60,345 nt of DNA from Candidatus Aegiribacteria sp. (GTDB lineage: Bacteria > Fermentibacterota > Fermentibacteria > Fermentibacterales > JCC-6), in contig JAIOQY010000128.1 of assembly GCA_021108435.1 (NCBI GenBank), forward strand, positions 1-60,345. Reading direction: 5' to 3'. Below the pieces are notes generated by a model. The model ran no database searches. It worked only from the letters and a program-made list of their open reading frames with translations, and was not told the origin of the DNA. Of the stretch, positions 327 through 7,456 are shown one piece after another. The translations under genes were made by a program, and so were the position numbers. Positions within the stretch are counted from its first letter, which is position 1, and each line of letters starts with the position of its first letter.

Positions 327-2252
327 TTGACCGGGATCAGGAAAATGGAGGATATGACACCCTCCGATTACAGTTTAATCGGACTTCGCAGCGGGCTGGA
401 GATACATCAGCAGCTTGATACGAAAAAAAAACTATTCTGCCGATGTCCTGTGCTTCCATATTCGCAATCATTCGATGCGGAGATACTGCGTCATATGAGA
501 CCGACTCTCTCAGAACTTGGTGAATATGACGGTACAGCACTTATGGAATTCAAGACGAAAAAGGAAATTATATATCAGATAAGCAAGGATACTGTCTGCA
601 CTTATGAGATGGACGATACTCCTCCTTTCGAATTGAATCGTCAGGCGCTCGATATAGCTCTTGAAATCACGATGCTCCTCAACTGTAAACTCATCAGTGA
701 ACTTCATATTCAGAGAAAACAGTACCTTGATGGCTCGATACCTGCAGGATTCCAGAGAACTACTATTCTGGGTGTGGACGGATGGATTCCATACGGTAAC
801 AGACGTATAGGTATAATTCAGCTTGGGCTCGAAGAAGATGCATGCCGTGAGGTGAGCGATACAGGACATGATCGTGTTTACCTGACTGACAGGCTGGGTA
901 TCCCGCTCATTGAGACGGTTACTGCTCCGGAGATGGTAACGCCTTATGAAGTTGCCGAGGTTGCGGTGATACTCAGTAATCTTGCCAGGGCTTCGAGAAA
1001 GGTTCGTCGCGGGATAGGAGCTGCAAGGCAGGATGTAAACGTATCCGTCAAGGGAGGTCAACGCGTTGAGATAAAAGGTGTTTCGAGAATCCCGACTATT
1101 CCTCTCCTCGTTCACAATGAAGCTTTCCGTCAGGTCATGCTTCTTTCAATTAAGAGCGAACTGAAAAAGAGAGAGATAACCGATTCGTCTTTCGAATCAT
1201 CTTCATTTGATATGACGGAATCACTTGCAGGTACACAATATAAACCAGCTGCACAGGCACTTTCGAAAGGGCTTCAACTTCACGCTGTGGTTCTTCGGGG
1301 TTACAGAGGAATACTCTCAACGGTTACGCAGCCTGGACAGACATTTGCCAGTGAGATATCCGATCGCGTCAGGGTGATAGCATGTCTTGACAGACTTCCC
1401 AACATCACTCATTCCGATTCAGAAGGAGAAAACTTCTCAACTTCTGAATGGGAAAAAATCATGAAATCAACAGGAGCTTTTAAGGACGACTCTGTACTGG
1501 TCATCTGGGGTAACGGTCAGGATATTTCTACTGCCTTAAGTGAGATTACAATAAGAGCACGGGAAGCAATCGATGGTGTATGTAACGAGACAAGACAGGC
1601 CCATCCTGACGGAACGAACGGGTTTGAAAGGATACTCCCGGGCCCGAACAGGATGTATCCTGACACTGACCTTCCACCACTGGCAATCAGTGTAGATCAT
1701 ATGGAAAGAATTTATTCCGCGCTTCCGGAACGCCCATGGGAACGTGCTGAACGATATACTGATGCAGGAGTTCCCGAAGAATCAGCACGACAGATGAGTA
1801 TTTCCATAATGAGAGATCTTTTTGATCGTGCTGTTAAGGAAACTTCCTATTCTTCAGGTGTTCTCTCGCATTTTTTTCTGAGTACATTAAGCCATCTGAA
1901 GAAAAGGGGGAAAGCTGCGGATCTAAGTGATGATATACTGATTTCATCGCTGTCTGAAGCCGGCAGAAGATCATTCCCGATCGATGCTGTTGCTCATATT
2001 CTTGAAGATACACGCGGATCCGGATTTAAAGACATATCTCTTGCTGCTGATGAAATCGAGATGCCTGACAGGAATGCTCTGGGAAAGGCTGTAGAGCAGA
2101 TTCTATCCTGCATTGAATCATCAGGAATTGAGCAGAAAATTCTGAATCGGTATATTGTTGGTAGAATAAGGCTCAAATTCAATGGTCTGATAAATGGAAA
2201 AGAAGTATCCGAAATTGTACATAGAGTACTTCTGACGAGAAATATATCATAA
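327..2252 (+). CDS. gatE: Glu-tRNA(Gln) amidotransferase subunit E, archaeal type
   Basis: GatE activates the gamma-carboxyl of Glu mischarged on tRNA(Gln) so that it can be amidated with ammonia delivered by GatD. The 641-aa length fits archaeal GatE. Visible marks are GLEIHQQLDT near residue 22, the GatB-like segment VEIKGVSRIPTIPLLVHNEA near 245, the inserted AspRS-type GAD domain (about 310-420), and RMYPDTDLPPLAI before a YqeY-like helical tail. GatB lacks the GAD insertion, which separates GatE from it. The TTG start at 327 is chosen because GGAAGGAG lies six bases upstream and the family N-terminus follows soon after. gatD follows after about 18 nt, so the two subunits are co-transcribed. 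GatDE is regarded as archaeal; finding it beside LPS genes is unusual. Confidence 0.93.
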   Translation: MTGIRKMEDMTPSDYSLIGLRSGLEIHQQLDTKKKLFCRCPVLPYSQSFDAEILRHMRPTLSELGEYDGTALMEFKTKKEIIYQISKDTVCTYEMDDTPPFELNRQALDIALEITMLLNCKLISELHIQRKQYLDGSIPAGFQRTTILGVDGWIPYGNRRIGIIQLGLEEDACREVSDTGHDRVYLTDRLGIPLIETVTAPEMVTPYEVAEVAVILSNLARASRKVRRGIGAARQDVNVSVKGGQRVEIKGVSRIPTIPLLVHNEAFRQVMLLSIKSELKKREITDSSFESSSFDMTESLAGTQYKPAAQALSKGLQLHAVVLRGYRGILSTVTQPGQTFASEISDRVRVIACLDRLPNITHSDSEGENFSTSEWEKIMKSTGAFKDDSVLVIWGNGQDISTALSEITIRAREAIDGVCNETRQAHPDGTNGFERILPGPNRMYPDTDLPPLAISVDHMERIYSALPERPWERAERYTDAGVPEESARQMSISIMRDLFDRAVKETSYSSGVLSHFFLSTLSHLKKRGKAADLSDDILISSLSEAGRRSFPIDAVAHILEDTRGSGFKDISLAADEIEMPDRNALGKAVEQILSCIESSGIEQKILNRYIVGRIRLKFNGLINGKEVSEIVHRVLLTRNIS

Positions 2253-2270
2253 GTATGGAGGTGATCGACG

Positions 2271-3656
2271 CTGTCTTCTGATTTATACAAGGGTTACAGC
2301 GGGAAAAGCCTTGCCTGCCTGAAAGAATTCAGTGTAGGGGTCTGGAGTGATGTGGATGTTCAGTCAACCCGTGGCTCCTTCAGCGGAACAATTCTACCCA
2401 GATCCGAAAACGCAGATGAATTTCACATTGTTCTTAAATTGCACAACGGGTATAACGTAGGTCTTGCTATCGATACTATCGAATCGATTATAGAGCTGGG
2501 CCGCACAGAAGCACATTATAAAATACCCGAGAAAGAGTTTCCTTACGATCCGGATAAAAAGAATGTCAAGCTTTTTGGAACCGGGGGAACTATCGCTTCA
2601 AGGCTTGATTATCGAACGGGCGCAGTAATACCGGCGTTTTCTCCTGGCGAACTTTATGGTTCCGTTCCTGAACTGGCTGATATCTGTAATCTCAAAACAG
2701 AAAAGCTCTTTGGTGTTTTCAGTGAAAATATGGGACCGGAACAGTGGATAGGCACAGCTGAAGCGATCGGAAAGGAGATAGAAGGCGGGATAGATGGAAT
2801 TGTTATCGGGCATGGAACTGATACTATGCATCATACAGCGGCAATACTCTCTTTCATGGTTCAGGATTCTCCGGTTCCGATTGTTATGGTCGGATCACAG
2901 AGATCGAGCGACAGGCCATCCAGCGACGCCGCGATAAATCTCATAAATGCTACTTATACCGCCGCGAGAAGCGATATAGCTGAAGTCATGGTTTGCATGT
3001 TCGGTCCGACAAGCGATCAGTACTGCCTCCTTCACAGAGGGACCAGGGTACGTAAAATGCACTCATCCTACAGGTCAACGTTTCGCACAATAGGAGACAT
3101 TCCCCTCGCAATGGTTGAAAAAGACAAGTTCATTATACTGAAGGATGACTGCAGGAAAAGAAGAAACGACAGGAAAGTAAGGATTAATACATCCTTCGAT
3201 GATCGAGTTTCCATAGTGTACTACTATCCCAACATGAAACCCGATATCATTGAATCACTTATCGATAACGATTACAAGGGTATAATTATTGCGGGAACAG
3301 GGCTCGGGCATGTAAATAAACCTCTTTATCCAGTGCTTAAGAAAGCGTGCGACAAAGGTATTCATATTTACATGACAGTTCAGACACTCTGGGGTTACGT
3401 TCAGATGTTTGTTTATGACACAGGTCGCGATATGATGGATCTCGGAGTCATACCGGCGGCGAACATGCTTCCTGAAGTTGCCTATGTGAAACTTTGCTGG
3501 GCTCTGGGACAGAGTCATGACCGAGAGGAAGTCAGAAATATCATGATGACATCTGTTGCAGGAGAAATCACAGAGAGGGAAGCACATAACGGATATCTTA
3601 TTCTCCAGGGAGGGATTCCCGAAGTCGAAGAATTTATAAAAATGCATAAAAGATAA
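2271..3656 (+). CDS. gatD: Glu-tRNA(Gln) amidotransferase subunit D, archaeal type (likely CTG start)
   Basis: GatD is the asparaginase-like glutaminase that frees ammonia for GatE. The core shows FGTGGTIASRLDYRTG and GHGTDTMHHTA, the two catalytic threonine motifs of the L-asparaginase fold. The first standard start is GTG 2352, but family-like N-terminal sequence (LYKGYSGKSLACLKEF) lies upstream in the same frame. No ATG, GTG or TTG exists between the in-frame stop at 2262 and 2352. CTG at 2271 sits six bases after a perfect GGAGGTGA (2257-2264), giving 461 aa; the GTG would give 434 aa and cut the N-terminal domain. The CTG start is inferred, while the product assignment is firm. Confidence 0.9.
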   Translation: MSSDLYKGYSGKSLACLKEFSVGVWSDVDVQSTRGSFSGTILPRSENADEFHIVLKLHNGYNVGLAIDTIESIIELGRTEAHYKIPEKEFPYDPDKKNVKLFGTGGTIASRLDYRTGAVIPAFSPGELYGSVPELADICNLKTEKLFGVFSENMGPEQWIGTAEAIGKEIEGGIDGIVIGHGTDTMHHTAAILSFMVQDSPVPIVMVGSQRSSDRPSSDAAINLINATYTAARSDIAEVMVCMFGPTSDQYCLLHRGTRVRKMHSSYRSTFRTIGDIPLAMVEKDKFIILKDDCRKRRNDRKVRINTSFDDRVSIVYYYPNMKPDIIESLIDNDYKGIIIAGTGLGHVNKPLYPVLKKACDKGIHIYMTVQTLWGYVQMFVYDTGRDMMDLGVIPAANMLPEVAYVKLCWALGQSHDREEVRNIMMTSVAGEITEREAHNGYLILQGGIPEVEEFIKMHKR

Positions 3657-3706: not shown

Positions 3707-3842
3707 TGATTTGTGATAAATACAGTAACGGATCGCCTGCTGTCCGGGGTGTGCTTTAAAAGCATATGTGGGGCAGTATTTTTTTTCAGTTGTTCTTGCT
3801 TGTACCACAGATCGGATGGAATCTTTACGAAGGGAGTTTCAT

Positions 3843-4394
3843 ATGAACATAGAACTCAGCGGGAGGCATTTTAACCTGACAGACGCTTTAAAAGAGCACG
3901 TTGAGAAGAAACTGAATTCAATAAACAGGTTCTATAACGGGATAGATGATGTACATGTGATTCTGGAAGTAACTTCAGGTACAAATCATGTTCATATACA
4001 GTTGCGGGGAAATCATCTCAAACTTGATTCAAAATCCAAATCGCATGATATATACATTGCATTCGATGACGCTTTTGATTCTCTTGAACGCCAGATTCGA
4101 AAACACAAGGATCGAAAGCACAACCATTCACATAGAAAACGGCAGGATTCAAACGAAAAGATATCTTCATCAACGTACTACATACCAGTTGAGGAATCAG
4201 ATTTTAAGGATGGAATCCTTATCGATGATACAGTTGAAATACCCCGTCATGAAACAAAAGACGCCATTATGGAATTTGAGATCGAAGCTGATGAGCCTTT
4301 TGTCTTTCATAATACCGAGACTGGAAGTCTCAGTGTGGTATACTCGACACATTCCGGCAGAACGCAGGTCGTTGAGCTTATAGAAAGCAACTGA
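3843..4394 (+). CDS. hpf: Ribosome hibernation promoting factor, long form
   Basis: HPF binds the 30S subunit and dimerises ribosomes into inactive 100S particles in slow growth. The 183-aa product has the N-terminal S30AE/RaiA domain (MNIELSGRHFNLTDALKEHV, about 1-100), a basic His/Lys-rich linker, and the C-terminal dimerisation domain ending EPFVFHNTETGSLSVVY. That makes it the long form. An upstream extension to 3768 is open, but the family N-terminus begins exactly at ATG 3843, which has AGGGAGT just upstream. hprK follows after 14 nt, echoing the hpf/PTS neighbourhood common near rpoN in other bacteria; no rpoN is present here. Confidence 0.9.
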   Translation: MNIELSGRHFNLTDALKEHVEKKLNSINRFYNGIDDVHVILEVTSGTNHVHIQLRGNHLKLDSKSKSHDIYIAFDDAFDSLERQIRKHKDRKHNHSHRKRQDSNEKISSSTYYIPVEESDFKDGILIDDTVEIPRHETKDAIMEFEIEADEPFVFHNTETGSLSVVYSTHSGRTQVVELIESN

Positions 4395-4408: not shown

Positions 4409-5380
4409 ATGGATAGTATACCAAAACCGGAGGATCTGACTGCAGCAAGACTTTTTGAGCTCCTTGGAGAAAAACTCAGTCTTGTTGCTGTCAACGGGAC
4501 AACAGGCCATGATTCACTGATTGAATCTCCCGATGTCAGCCGACCCTGTATGGCTCTCACCGGTTTCCTGAACAAATTCCTTCATGAACGAATACAGATA
4601 TTCGGAGAAACTGAGATAACCTACCTTGACTCACTCTCAGAAACAGCGCGAAAATCTGCCATTGAGAACATATTTCGATTTCCGATACATTGTTCTATCG
4701 TAACAAAAAACATCATCCCACCTCCTTTACTTGTGGAATTGTCCAGAAATAATAACTGCGCACTATTCAGATCAATGAGAGATACGACGCCTCTTATCCA
4801 CGATCTGTCGGGCTTTCTTGATCTCGTATTTGCTCCAAGAACTGATGTTTACGGAAGCCTTGTTGAGGTTTTTGGAGCCGGACTGCTTTGTACAGGACGA
4901 AGTGCAATAGGGAAGAGTGAGGCAGTTCTCGGACTTCTGGAACGCGGACACAGACTGATAGCTGATGACAGGGTATATGTCAGGCGAATCGGTAATGCTC
5001 TTTTTGGAACCGGTGATTCAAGAATGGCTCACCATATGGAAATCAGAGGGCTTGGATTTGTGGATGTTTCCGCCTTCTATGGCATTCGCGCAGTTAAGGA
5101 TAGACAACAGATTCATCTTGAAGTGAGACTGATGGAATGGTCAAGAGATGACCAGGAATTTGACAGAACCGGTCTTATTCAGAAGATGAACAGGATCCTG
5201 GATCTGTCGATACCCAGAACTACTATTCCGGTGATGCCTGGAAGGAATCTCACACTTCTTCTTGAGGTGGCTGTAATGAATTACCTTCTTAGAAGCAAAG
5301 GTAGAAGCGTTCCTGAAGAAATTGAAAAGAATCAAATTGAAACAATTATCAGAAAAGAACAAGAACTGAATAGTAAGTAA
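4409..5380 (+). CDS. hprK: HPr kinase/phosphorylase
   Basis: HprK phosphorylates and dephosphorylates HPr on Ser46 to link carbon state to regulation. The 323-aa length is normal. An N-terminal domain (1-130) is followed by the P-loop kinase with GRSAIGKS (163-170), IADD near 184-187, and the family stretch EIRGLGFVDVSAFYGIRAV near 211. Two deviations are visible. The usual HG before the P-loop is YG here (DVYGSLVEVFGAG). The P-loop reads GRSAIGKS where family members usually have GDSGxGKS. The kinase/phosphorylase balance may therefore differ. The target HPr gene with Ser46 lies directly downstream. Confidence 0.88.
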   Translation: MDSIPKPEDLTAARLFELLGEKLSLVAVNGTTGHDSLIESPDVSRPCMALTGFLNKFLHERIQIFGETEITYLDSLSETARKSAIENIFRFPIHCSIVTKNIIPPPLLVELSRNNNCALFRSMRDTTPLIHDLSGFLDLVFAPRTDVYGSLVEVFGAGLLCTGRSAIGKSEAVLGLLERGHRLIADDRVYVRRIGNALFGTGDSRMAHHMEIRGLGFVDVSAFYGIRAVKDRQQIHLEVRLMEWSRDDQEFDRTGLIQKMNRILDLSIPRTTIPVMPGRNLTLLLEVAVMNYLLRSKGRSVPEEIEKNQIETIIRKEQELNSK

Positions 5381-5406: not shown

Positions 5407-5673
5407 TTGAAAGCTGAAAACGCTGAAGTAATTAACAAGCTTGGAATTCATGCCCGGCCTGCTGCACAGATTGTAAAGAAAGCATCGAATTTCGACAGTC
5501 ATATTACTTTAACTGTTGAACGTGATACGGTTAATGCAAAAAGCATAATGGGGGTTATGACTCTTGCTGCATGTCGTGGAAGCACCATAGAAGTGAGAGC
5601 GGATGGGGCAGATGAAATAGAAGCCGTCGAAGCTCTCATAATACTAATTAACGATGGTTTCGGAGAGGAATGA
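5407..5673 (+). CDS. ptsH: Phosphocarrier protein HPr
   Basis: The 88-aa product carries NKLGIHARPAAQIV with the phosphorylatable His15 (target of enzyme I) and AKSIMGVM with Ser46 (target of HprK). The TTG start at 5407 is supported by AGGAGT about seven bases upstream; the nearer ATG at 5402 runs into TGA after two codons. It lies between hprK and ptsI, so both phosphorylation routes to it are encoded together. No sugar-specific EII component is in the window, which suggests a regulatory rather than transport role. Confidence 0.94.
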   Translation: MKAENAEVINKLGIHARPAAQIVKKASNFDSHITLTVERDTVNAKSIMGVMTLAACRGSTIEVRADGADEIEAVEALIILINDGFGEE

Positions 5674-7456
5674 AAAGCTGAGCATTCGACTGACTGGAAC
5701 AGCAGCATCACCCGGAATATCAATTGGCCCTGTATTTCTGCTGAATGTGGAAGAAATCAGGGTTAAGAAATATGTCCTGAAAGACAAAACAGAGGTGGAT
5801 CGGGAATTGATACGTTTCCGGGAAGCTCTTCTGCACTCACGCGTGGAACTTGAGGAAATCTCCGGCCAGGTCAGCGATATTATTGAGGGGAAACAACTCA
5901 TGGAAGTGCATATTCTCCTTCTTGACGATCCCGCCATCCATAAAGAAGTAGAGAATAGAATAAGAGAAGAACTTGTAAGCGCAGAATATGCTGTAAGTCA
6001 GGTTTTGTATGATATCCTCGAACGTTTTAATTCGATTGAGGATCCTTACCTGCGAAGCAGATCGGTAGATGTCCGCGATGTAGGCAGACGTGTGATTGCA
6101 AACCTTCTGGGAACTGAGAAAGAGGTTCTCGCGAATTTAGACCACCCCGTAGTGCTCGTATCGAGTGATCTGGATCCTTCTCAGACCGCGGGTCTGACGA
6201 GAAAACAACTCCTCGGGATTGTAACCGATCTTGGTGGTTCAACCTCACATACGGCAATACTGTCAAGAAGCATGGGAATACCTTCCGTTGTAGCCCTGAA
6301 GGATGTAGCTGAGTACGCTCATCCTGGTCAAACGGTAATTGTTGATGGAGTGCACGGTGTTGTCATACTTGATCCTGACGAGGACGAACTGGAATATTAT
6401 ACAGAGCTGAAAAATCGTTACAACATGGCGGAAGCAGAGATTGCGCTAAACGCTGAAAACGAGACAGTTACGGAAGATGGAAAGAAAATTGAACTTTCCG
6501 CGAATATAGAGTTCTCTCAGGAAGCTGATCAGGTAAAACGTTTTGGGGGAAAGGGAATCGGACTCTTCAGAACAGAATTCATTAGACTTCTTTCACCTGA
6601 AATCGAAGATGATGAAGAAATCCATTTCAGAGCGTATAAACATGTTCTGAAAGCAGTTTCTCCGGAACCTGTTATAATCAGGACTTTTGATCTGGGTGGA
6701 GACAAATTTTTGGAATCCATCCCCACCAAAGAGCGAAATCCTTTTCTCGGATGGAGAGGCATAAGAATCTGCCTTGACCGACCTTTAAAATTTCAGAGCC
6801 AGTTAAGAGCAGTTCTAAGAGCTGCAAGATTCGGCAATGCGTGGTTGATGCTGCCGATGATCACATCGCAGGATCAGGTTTTGCAGGTAAAAGTTATGCT
6901 TGAACAAATAGCAGCAGAACTGGATGCATCCAAGACACCTCATGGTTCAATTCCTTCACTCGGAATTATGGTGGAAACGCCTGCTGCCGCGCTGGCTATT
7001 GATTTCCTGATCCCTCATATTGATTTTGTCTCAATAGGGTCAAATGACCTTACACAGTACACTCTTGCAGTTGATAGAGGCAGTCCTTACGTGTCAGACC
7101 TTTTCGATTCGCTTCATCCCTCGGTTCTGAGACAGATAGAACATGTAGCAAGGAAATGCAGGGAAGCTGATATCTGGGTCGGAATATGCGGACAGATGGC
7201 AAGCAGCCCGCTGGCTATACCACTACTTCTTGGATTCGGGATTGATGAACTCAGTGTATCCCTGACACTGATTCCGGATGTCAAAAAGATGATAAGTGTT
7301 ATTAATATGAAAGAAGCAGAAGCACTTGCACGAAAGACTCTGATGATGGAGTCAGGAAATGAAATAAGGAAATACGTACTTGAGTACGTCGAATCAAGGT
7401 ATCCTGAAATAATTCTGGATGAGATTCACCGTGATAATAATGATCGGAGAAACTGA
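5654..7456 (+). CDS. ptsI: PTS enzyme I (phosphoenolpyruvate-protein phosphotransferase)
   Basis: Enzyme I moves phosphate from PEP to His15 of HPr. The 600-aa product has the swivelling His domain with LGGSTSHTAILSRSMGIP, then the PEP-binding barrel with LGIMVETPAAAL, IGSNDLTQYTLAVDRG and GICGQMASSP (usually GICGEMAGD, active-site Cys kept). The ATG at 5654 overlaps ptsH by 20 nt and has no clear ribosome binding site. An in-frame CTG at 5678, nine bases after GGAGAGG, would start the protein at LSIRLTGTAASPGI, closer to the usual enzyme I N-terminus. The start is therefore uncertain. The next gene begins directly after the stop. Confidence 0.93.
   Translation: MVSERNEKLSIRLTGTAASPGISIGPVFLLNVEEIRVKKYVLKDKTEVDRELIRFREALLHSRVELEEISGQVSDIIEGKQLMEVHILLLDDPAIHKEVENRIREELVSAEYAVSQVLYDILERFNSIEDPYLRSRSVDVRDVGRRVIANLLGTEKEVLANLDHPVVLVSSDLDPSQTAGLTRKQLLGIVTDLGGSTSHTAILSRSMGIPSVVALKDVAEYAHPGQTVIVDGVHGVVILDPDEDELEYYTELKNRYNMAEAEIALNAENETVTEDGKKIELSANIEFSQEADQVKRFGGKGIGLFRTEFIRLLSPEIEDDEEIHFRAYKHVLKAVSPEPVIIRTFDLGGDKFLESIPTKERNPFLGWRGIRICLDRPLKFQSQLRAVLRAARFGNAWLMLPMITSQDQVLQVKVMLEQIAAELDASKTPHGSIPSLGIMVETPAAALAIDFLIPHIDFVSIGSNDLTQYTLAVDRGSPYVSDLFDSLHPSVLRQIEHVARKCREADIWVGICGQMASSPLAIPLLLGFGIDELSVSLTLIPDVKKMISVINMKEAEALARKTLMMESGNEIRKYVLEYVESRYPEIILDEIHRDNNDRRN

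Follow-up and report, generated by a model that had tools for sequence, protein, structure and literature searches.

A tandem gatE-gatD pair in Candidatus Aegiribacteria

The window analysed here, a 60,345-nucleotide stretch of Candidatus Aegiribacteria sp. (contig JAIOQY010000128.1, assembly GCA_021108435.1), carries gatE and then gatD in tandem, encoding the two subunits of GatDE, an amidotransferase that a 2022 review places only in archaea (PMC9499178; here and below, citations refer to parts of the sources). All features described lie on the + strand. gatE (327–2252, TTG start) encodes 641 amino acids that form a GatB/GatE cradle (kinase/transamidase) domain, a GAD insertion resembling that of aspartyl-tRNA synthetase (AspRS; residues about 282–430, 1170–1616) and a helical and YqeY-like tRNA-binding tail (residues 468–641, 1728–2249), and a Shine–Dalgarno-like GGAAGGAG (313–320) precedes its start. 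gatD (2271–3656) encodes a GatD_N domain and an asparaginase-type glutaminase. Although the mechanical open reading frame of gatD begins at GTG 2352, the gene very probably starts near 2271, at a CTG, because the 27 codons upstream of 2352 continue the reading frame and relatives conserve them; GGAGGTGAT (2257–2265), likewise Shine–Dalgarno-like, lies ahead of this probable start. CTG occupies the same position in loci L106, L110 and L112, and TTG in L109; a CTG start behind a strong Shine–Dalgarno sequence appears in several Aegiribacteria and in one Krumholzibacteriota locus.

Both proteins exceeded the cut-offs of curated equivalog models. GatE scored 509 bits against NCBIfam PRK04028 (GatE; cut-off 456) and 447 bits against TIGR00134 (cut-off 319.6), and GatD scored 524 bits against TIGR02153 (cut-off 324); the best GatB model reached 143 bits on the window GatE, under its cut-off of 338. 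Pfam recognized GatD_N (PF18195, 46.5 bits, cut-off 25.7) and both asparaginase domains in GatD. The nearest solved structures to both subunits were two archaeal GatDEs, with GatE matching PDB 1zq1_C at E = 5e-105. Like the archaeal enzymes of P. abyssi (1zq1) and M. thermautotrophicus (2d6f), the window pair has two subunits, a GatD with GatD_N and asparaginase fold, a GatB-like cradle with GAD insertion and tail, and all of the residues that we take to be catalytic, whose numbers were checked against 2d6f. T80, T156, D157 and K235 of GatD correspond to T101, T177, D178 and K254 of 2d6f, and the first two are the double-threonine sites already noted in a sequence-only reading of this DNA. T80, T156 and D157 were kept in 91 of 92 aligned rows and K235 in 87 of 92, with gaps and no substitutions in the remainder; the metal and ATP residues of GatE were kept in 112–113 of 113 rows, the rest again being gaps.

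An AlphaFold2 model of GatE, built from 34 bacterial sequences, had a predicted local distance difference test score (pLDDT) of 85 and a predicted template-modelling score of 0.82, and was least sure at loop 134–141 (pLDDT <50). It superposed on 2d6f_D with Z 36.7 (509 residues, root-mean-square deviation 4.7) and on 1zq1_C with Z 33.0. Residues 286–417 of the model resembled the GAD domain of AspRS (1c0a, Z 14.1), and the segment at about 282–430 was present in P. abyssi GatE and mostly missing from seven bacterial GatBs; the Pfam GAD profile gave 13.4 bits, under its 23.4 cut-off. Alignment occupancy and the modelled fold together indicate that the insertion is real and that GatB mostly lacks it, as the sequence-only reading had proposed. 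Residues 468–641 resembled the N-terminal tRNA-binding domain of glutaminyl-tRNA synthetase (GlnRS; 4ye9, Z 9.8), and the tail motif is retained in the alignment; the Pfam PF02637 (GatB_Yqey) profile found no match on the window GatE tail.

The pair belongs to a bacterial branch of GatDE

A single scan covering 84,980 species genomes gave at least 589 confirmed loci, the best 80 of which were examined as named loci. These 80 represent 15 named phyla, with Ignavibacteriota (16) and Bacteroidota (13) the best represented, and none was labelled archaeal. Six of them, together with L155, are duplicate contigs of other loci, and some duplicates were kept in the conserved-residue rows and in the distance comparison. 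The closest named loci belonged to Candidatus Aegiribacteria and Fermentibacteria (GatE identity 84–87%), both of which taxonomy places in the Fibrobacteres–Chlorobi–Bacteroidetes (FCB) group. At the level of the order, 35 of 42 genomes had a GatE match, 34 of them over the cut-off.

In a GatE tree with GatB as outgroup, which left out 13 duplicate or fragment rows and one of eight GatB loci, bacterial GatE (97 rows) lay on one side of a branch with support of 70, and two archaeal sequences were set apart together with locus L033 (support 98). GatE thus did not cluster with GatB, in line with the sequence-only reading. Bacterial GatD (74 rows, duplicates and fragments left out) separated likewise with support of 100. 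The trees hold only two archaeal GatDEs and set bacterial GatE apart with support of only 70, too little to place the root or to tell which way any ancient transfer would have gone. Identity to the archaeal proteins was about 35% for GatE and 48% for GatD, and GatD was 56–100% identical among bacteria.

We found 39 diagnostic GatE columns at which the two archaeal GatEs agree and bacteria have a different residue that is at least 90% constant; 12 short rows and L033 were left out of the bacterial consensus, and several of the columns adjoin catalytic motifs. The window GatE, itself among the rows that define the columns, has the bacterial state at 39 of 39. The equivalent list for GatD has 42 entries. 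GatB has the bacterial state at 5 of the 39 GatE columns and the archaeal state at 2, which is thin evidence for polarizing them. A Natrinema GatE that had no part in choosing the columns, and part of which is out of frame, was archaeal at 22, bacterial at 3 and different from both at 7, with gaps at 7. This protein is unannotated and lies on a 987 kb haloarchaeal plasmid (L303, CP031304.1) as two matched parts in different frames. No plasmid or phage record matched GatE at 80% coverage, and apart from this one most matches looked like pieces of GatB.

Columns and trees together point to a distinct, bacterial-type GatDE on an ancient-looking branch, apparently old enough to span many bacterial phyla. 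The 'archaeal-type' label of the sequence-only reading therefore does not hold for the window pair, which nests in the bacterial clade. That reading had offered either an inter-domain transfer or an older bacterial lineage; the older lineage fits, and a recent transfer is contradicted by the trees and by the low identity. L033, on a 7.6 kb contig of a genome (G047) from another bacterial family, has the archaeal state at 25 columns and the bacterial state at 3, and its order is gatD-gatE, in contrast to gatE-gatD in the window. It seems to be either a contaminant contig or an archaeal-like pair acquired separately.

Genomic context, linkage and selection

The genome that holds the window (contig C128 in our numbering) is a 2.92 Mb draft with 95.6% completeness and 0.18% contamination, and base composition is uniform along the contig. 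Downstream of gatD lie the bacterial genes hpf/raiA for a ribosome hibernation factor (3768–4394; NCBIfam yfiA, 83.7 bits, cut-off 40.9), hprK for HPr kinase/phosphatase (4409–5380; hpr-ser, 311.8 bits, cut-off 240) and ptsI for enzyme I of the phosphotransferase system (5654–7456; PTS_I_fam, 543.8 bits, cut-off 341.7). The order gatD-hpf-hprK recurs in independently assembled relatives from the same order (L106, L110, L111, L292–L297 and others); the contig is therefore no chimera, which disposes of the artefact that the sequence-only reading had named, and the GatDE genes truly belong to a bacterial genome, as it had held. In the sister genera g4 and g5, hpf-hprK adjoins gatE on the opposite strand, with gatD at another genomic position. 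Two direct repeats of 103 nt, 99% identical (42–247), and a G+C-rich 13-nt tandem repeat (262–313) lie between the contig start and gatE, and the contig may end on this side because of them.

gatD was on the same locus as gatE in 72 of the best 80 loci, and in related genera where the two are not adjacent, a gatD over the cut-off was found elsewhere in the same genome. Pairwise GatE and GatD distances covaried across 81 bacterial loci (Mantel r = 0.77, P = 0.001). Against close relatives, the ratio of nonsynonymous to synonymous substitution (dN/dS) was 0.14–0.19 for gatE and 0.03–0.05 for gatD; both genes are under strong purifying selection. Immediately upstream of gatE, glnA (glutamine synthetase) was found in 6 of the best 80 loci (L109, L112–L115 and L179), from at least four phyla, and thus points to glutamine metabolism; besides gatD and, in those six, glnA, no widely common neighbour was seen among the 80.

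GatDE usually accompanies GlnRS

The host genome encodes one GlnRS (777 bits, cut-off 425.8) and one bacterial glutamyl-tRNA synthetase (GluRS; 489 bits, cut-off 290), and at 95.6% completeness it yielded no match for PF01425 (Amidase) or PF02637 and hence no GatA or GatB. The sequence-only reading had suggested a search of the genome for gatA/B/C, glnS and a non-discriminating gltX: the absence of GatA and GatB agrees with it, and the presence of GlnRS was unexpected. With GlnRS in the genome, Gln-tRNA formation does not depend on the window GatDE alone. This host differs in that respect from archaea, in which GatDE is the sole route and GlnRS is lacking. Bacterial GatCAB shares the cradle and tail folds of GatB, and a loop described below, with GatE; it differs in the GAD insertion, which GatB lacks, and in having GatA and GatB, for which the window genome has no match. 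Deinococcus, Thermus and Bdellovibrio, like the host, keep an amidotransferase beside GlnRS and asparaginyl-tRNA synthetase (AsnRS), and theirs makes Asn-tRNA (PMC4206432); it is GatCAB, and the host's is GatDE.

We surveyed the company of GatDE in 50 of the 80 named genomes. GlnRS alone was found in 23, GlnRS with GatB in 15, GatB alone in 7 and neither in 5, so that one or both coexist with GatDE in 45 of 50. Since GlnRS is present in 38 of 50 and GatB in 22 (21 over the cut-off and one split over two contigs), GatDE seldom stands alone as a source of Gln-tRNA. The single-chromosome records CP070707.1 and CP054675.1 both combine GatDE with GlnRS and contain no GatB; the coexistence is therefore not only an artefact of fragmented bins, and it is the surprising trait of the bacterial branch. 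The five genomes that have neither are perhaps incomplete. G087 (3.8 Mb), the most interesting of the five, has GatDE and two GluRS, and no GlnRS or GatB match over the cut-off, which is the gene set that an indirect route needs.

The single tRNA-Gln(UUG) of the host has U1-A72 and G73. Archaeal tRNA(Gln) has A1-U72 and A73 (PMC9499178), and the acceptor features recognized by archaeal GatDE, which the sequence-only reading had raised, are thus missing here. The window GatE loop RKQYLDGSIPAGFQ resembles RKNYFYPDLPKGYQ of GatB. The bacterial GatE consensus, RKQYLDGS-IP-xGFQ, has a Tyr and a Pro in common with GatB, in contrast to archaeal RKxVxDGSNxxGFQ, and GatB and GatE share K-x-Y-x(4)-[LI]-P-x-G-[FY]-Q. 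The cradle domain of GatB is thought to read U1-A72 (PMC4027206). Our guess from these motifs is that bacterial GatE may have switched from reading A1-U72 to reading U1-A72.

A proposed backup or repair role in making Gln-tRNA(Gln), and its alternatives

The identity of the pair, its intact active sites, fold, linkage, co-divergence, purifying selection and co-occurrence with GlnRS are established here, and the window GatDE is likely to have glutamine-dependent tRNA amidotransferase activity. At a probability of roughly 0.55, we favour bacterial-type GatDE as a working amidotransferase serving as a second or a repair pathway for Gln-tRNA(Gln) formation. GatD would hydrolyse glutamine and the ammonia would be channelled to GatE, which would phosphorylate the side-chain carboxylate of a glutamate wrongly carried by tRNA(Gln) and then amidate it. 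GlnRS would charge most tRNA(Gln) in the host, with GatDE as a second route or to repair Glu-tRNA(Gln); the rare genomes with neither GlnRS nor GatCAB would perhaps rely on GatDE as the main route. We infer that this backup or repair is the leading role and formation of Asn-tRNA(Asn) its main rival.

Several observations weigh against such a role. The presence of GlnRS beside GatDE, in the host and in the 38 of 50 surveyed genomes, makes the route look dispensable, and a member of the same family (G020, 95% complete) has GlnRS and neither gatE nor gatD. The host GluRS has Arg at the T. thermophilus Arg358 position, which we take to be the mark of a discriminating-type enzyme that would supply little Glu-tRNA(Gln); the mark is weak, because in another genome (G050) the GluRS, the sole PF00749 protein found, also has Arg there, and no GlnRS was found. 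In genera g4 and g5 (L049–L052 and L054–L061, 12 rows) GatE lacks the end of the YqeY-like tail, and loss of the tail abolishes the activity of yeast GatB (PMC4027206).

Tentatively, GatDE could be ancient in bacteria (early in the FCB group or before), read U1-A72 tRNAs and not be the main route to Gln-tRNA, instead acting in Asp-tRNA(Asn) or other amidation, or in fidelity beside GlnRS. The first of these, in which Asp-tRNA(Asn) is turned into Asn-tRNA(Asn) and GatDE is partnered by a non-discriminating AspRS, seems unlikely. It draws on the sole AspRS found in the host (L073, contig C213), which is archaeal-type, exceeds the cut-offs of two 'aspartate--tRNA(Asn) ligase' models (530 over 353 and 381 over 368 bits) and has T. 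thermophilus non-discriminating AspRS2 as its nearest solved structure. No AsnB over the cut-off was found in the host genome (AsnA was not searched for), its tRNA(Gln) is already served by GlnRS, and the GatB that the GatE loop resembles serves both tRNAs (PMC4206432). Against this, the host has AsnRS (split over two contigs), G020 has the same AspRS without GatDE, and AsnB exceeded the cut-off in 30 of 54 genomes (G048 and G094 being one genome counted twice, here and in the AspRS tally that follows). Nor does the AspRS trait track GatDE. A general link between the two, apparent when counted by eye in 27 of 36 named GatDE genomes versus 2 of 15 GatE-negative ones, was rejected, as all three proteins scanned from outside the order (L278, L283 and L289) proved to be AsnRS; the other listed AspRS-like proteins outside the order end in an AsnRS-like motif. 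Among the 39 tRNA matches in the host genome, none was for tRNA-Asn, tRNA-Ile or tRNA-Phe.

More doubtful still is recruitment of GatDE to another amidation linked to glutamine supply, with some other aminoacyl-tRNA or a non-tRNA carboxylate as the substrate. The columns that separate bacteria from archaea (39 in GatE and 42 in GatD), the presence of GlnRS and/or GatCAB in 45 of 50 genomes, the glnA linkage and the tail truncation in one genus group would suit it; the window protein, however, keeps all catalytic residues and its GAD and tail domains, and most loci have no conserved neighbour other than gatD. That GatDE is a vestige of an indirect Gln route that preceded the acquisition of GlnRS is improbable: GlnRS co-occurrence and the absence of GatDE from G020 would fit, but dN/dS of 0.03–0.19, retention of both genes over many phyla and the GatD identity of 56–100% among bacteria do not. 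Recent acquisition from an archaeon, or contaminating archaeal DNA fused to a bacterial contig, has little in its favour beyond the known archaeal occurrence of GatDE (PMC9499178) and is highly improbable given the recurring gatD-hpf-hprK order, the even composition, the bacterial clade in both trees and the low identity to archaeal proteins.

Implications for GatDE biology

Reviews have argued from an archaea-only GatDE about the last universal common ancestor and about the reasons that archaea did not adopt GlnRS (PMC9499178), and a survey of 366 bacterial genomes read the absence of GatCAB as proof of a defunct indirect Gln route, with no mention of GatDE in its text (PMC3927822). Judged by titles and the openings of abstracts, we recognized no report of a bacterial GatDE among the open-access papers searched, a scope outside which most subscription papers lie. 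Bacterial GatDE proteins, even if undiscussed, would already be nameable in databases through the NCBI models (GatE label). The wide occurrence of GatDE together with GlnRS in bacteria takes force from both the archaea-only argument and the argument from GatCAB absence. It also makes the joint presence of GatDE and GlnRS in a single cell open to experiment, and gives studies of tRNA reading by GatE a bacterial point of comparison.

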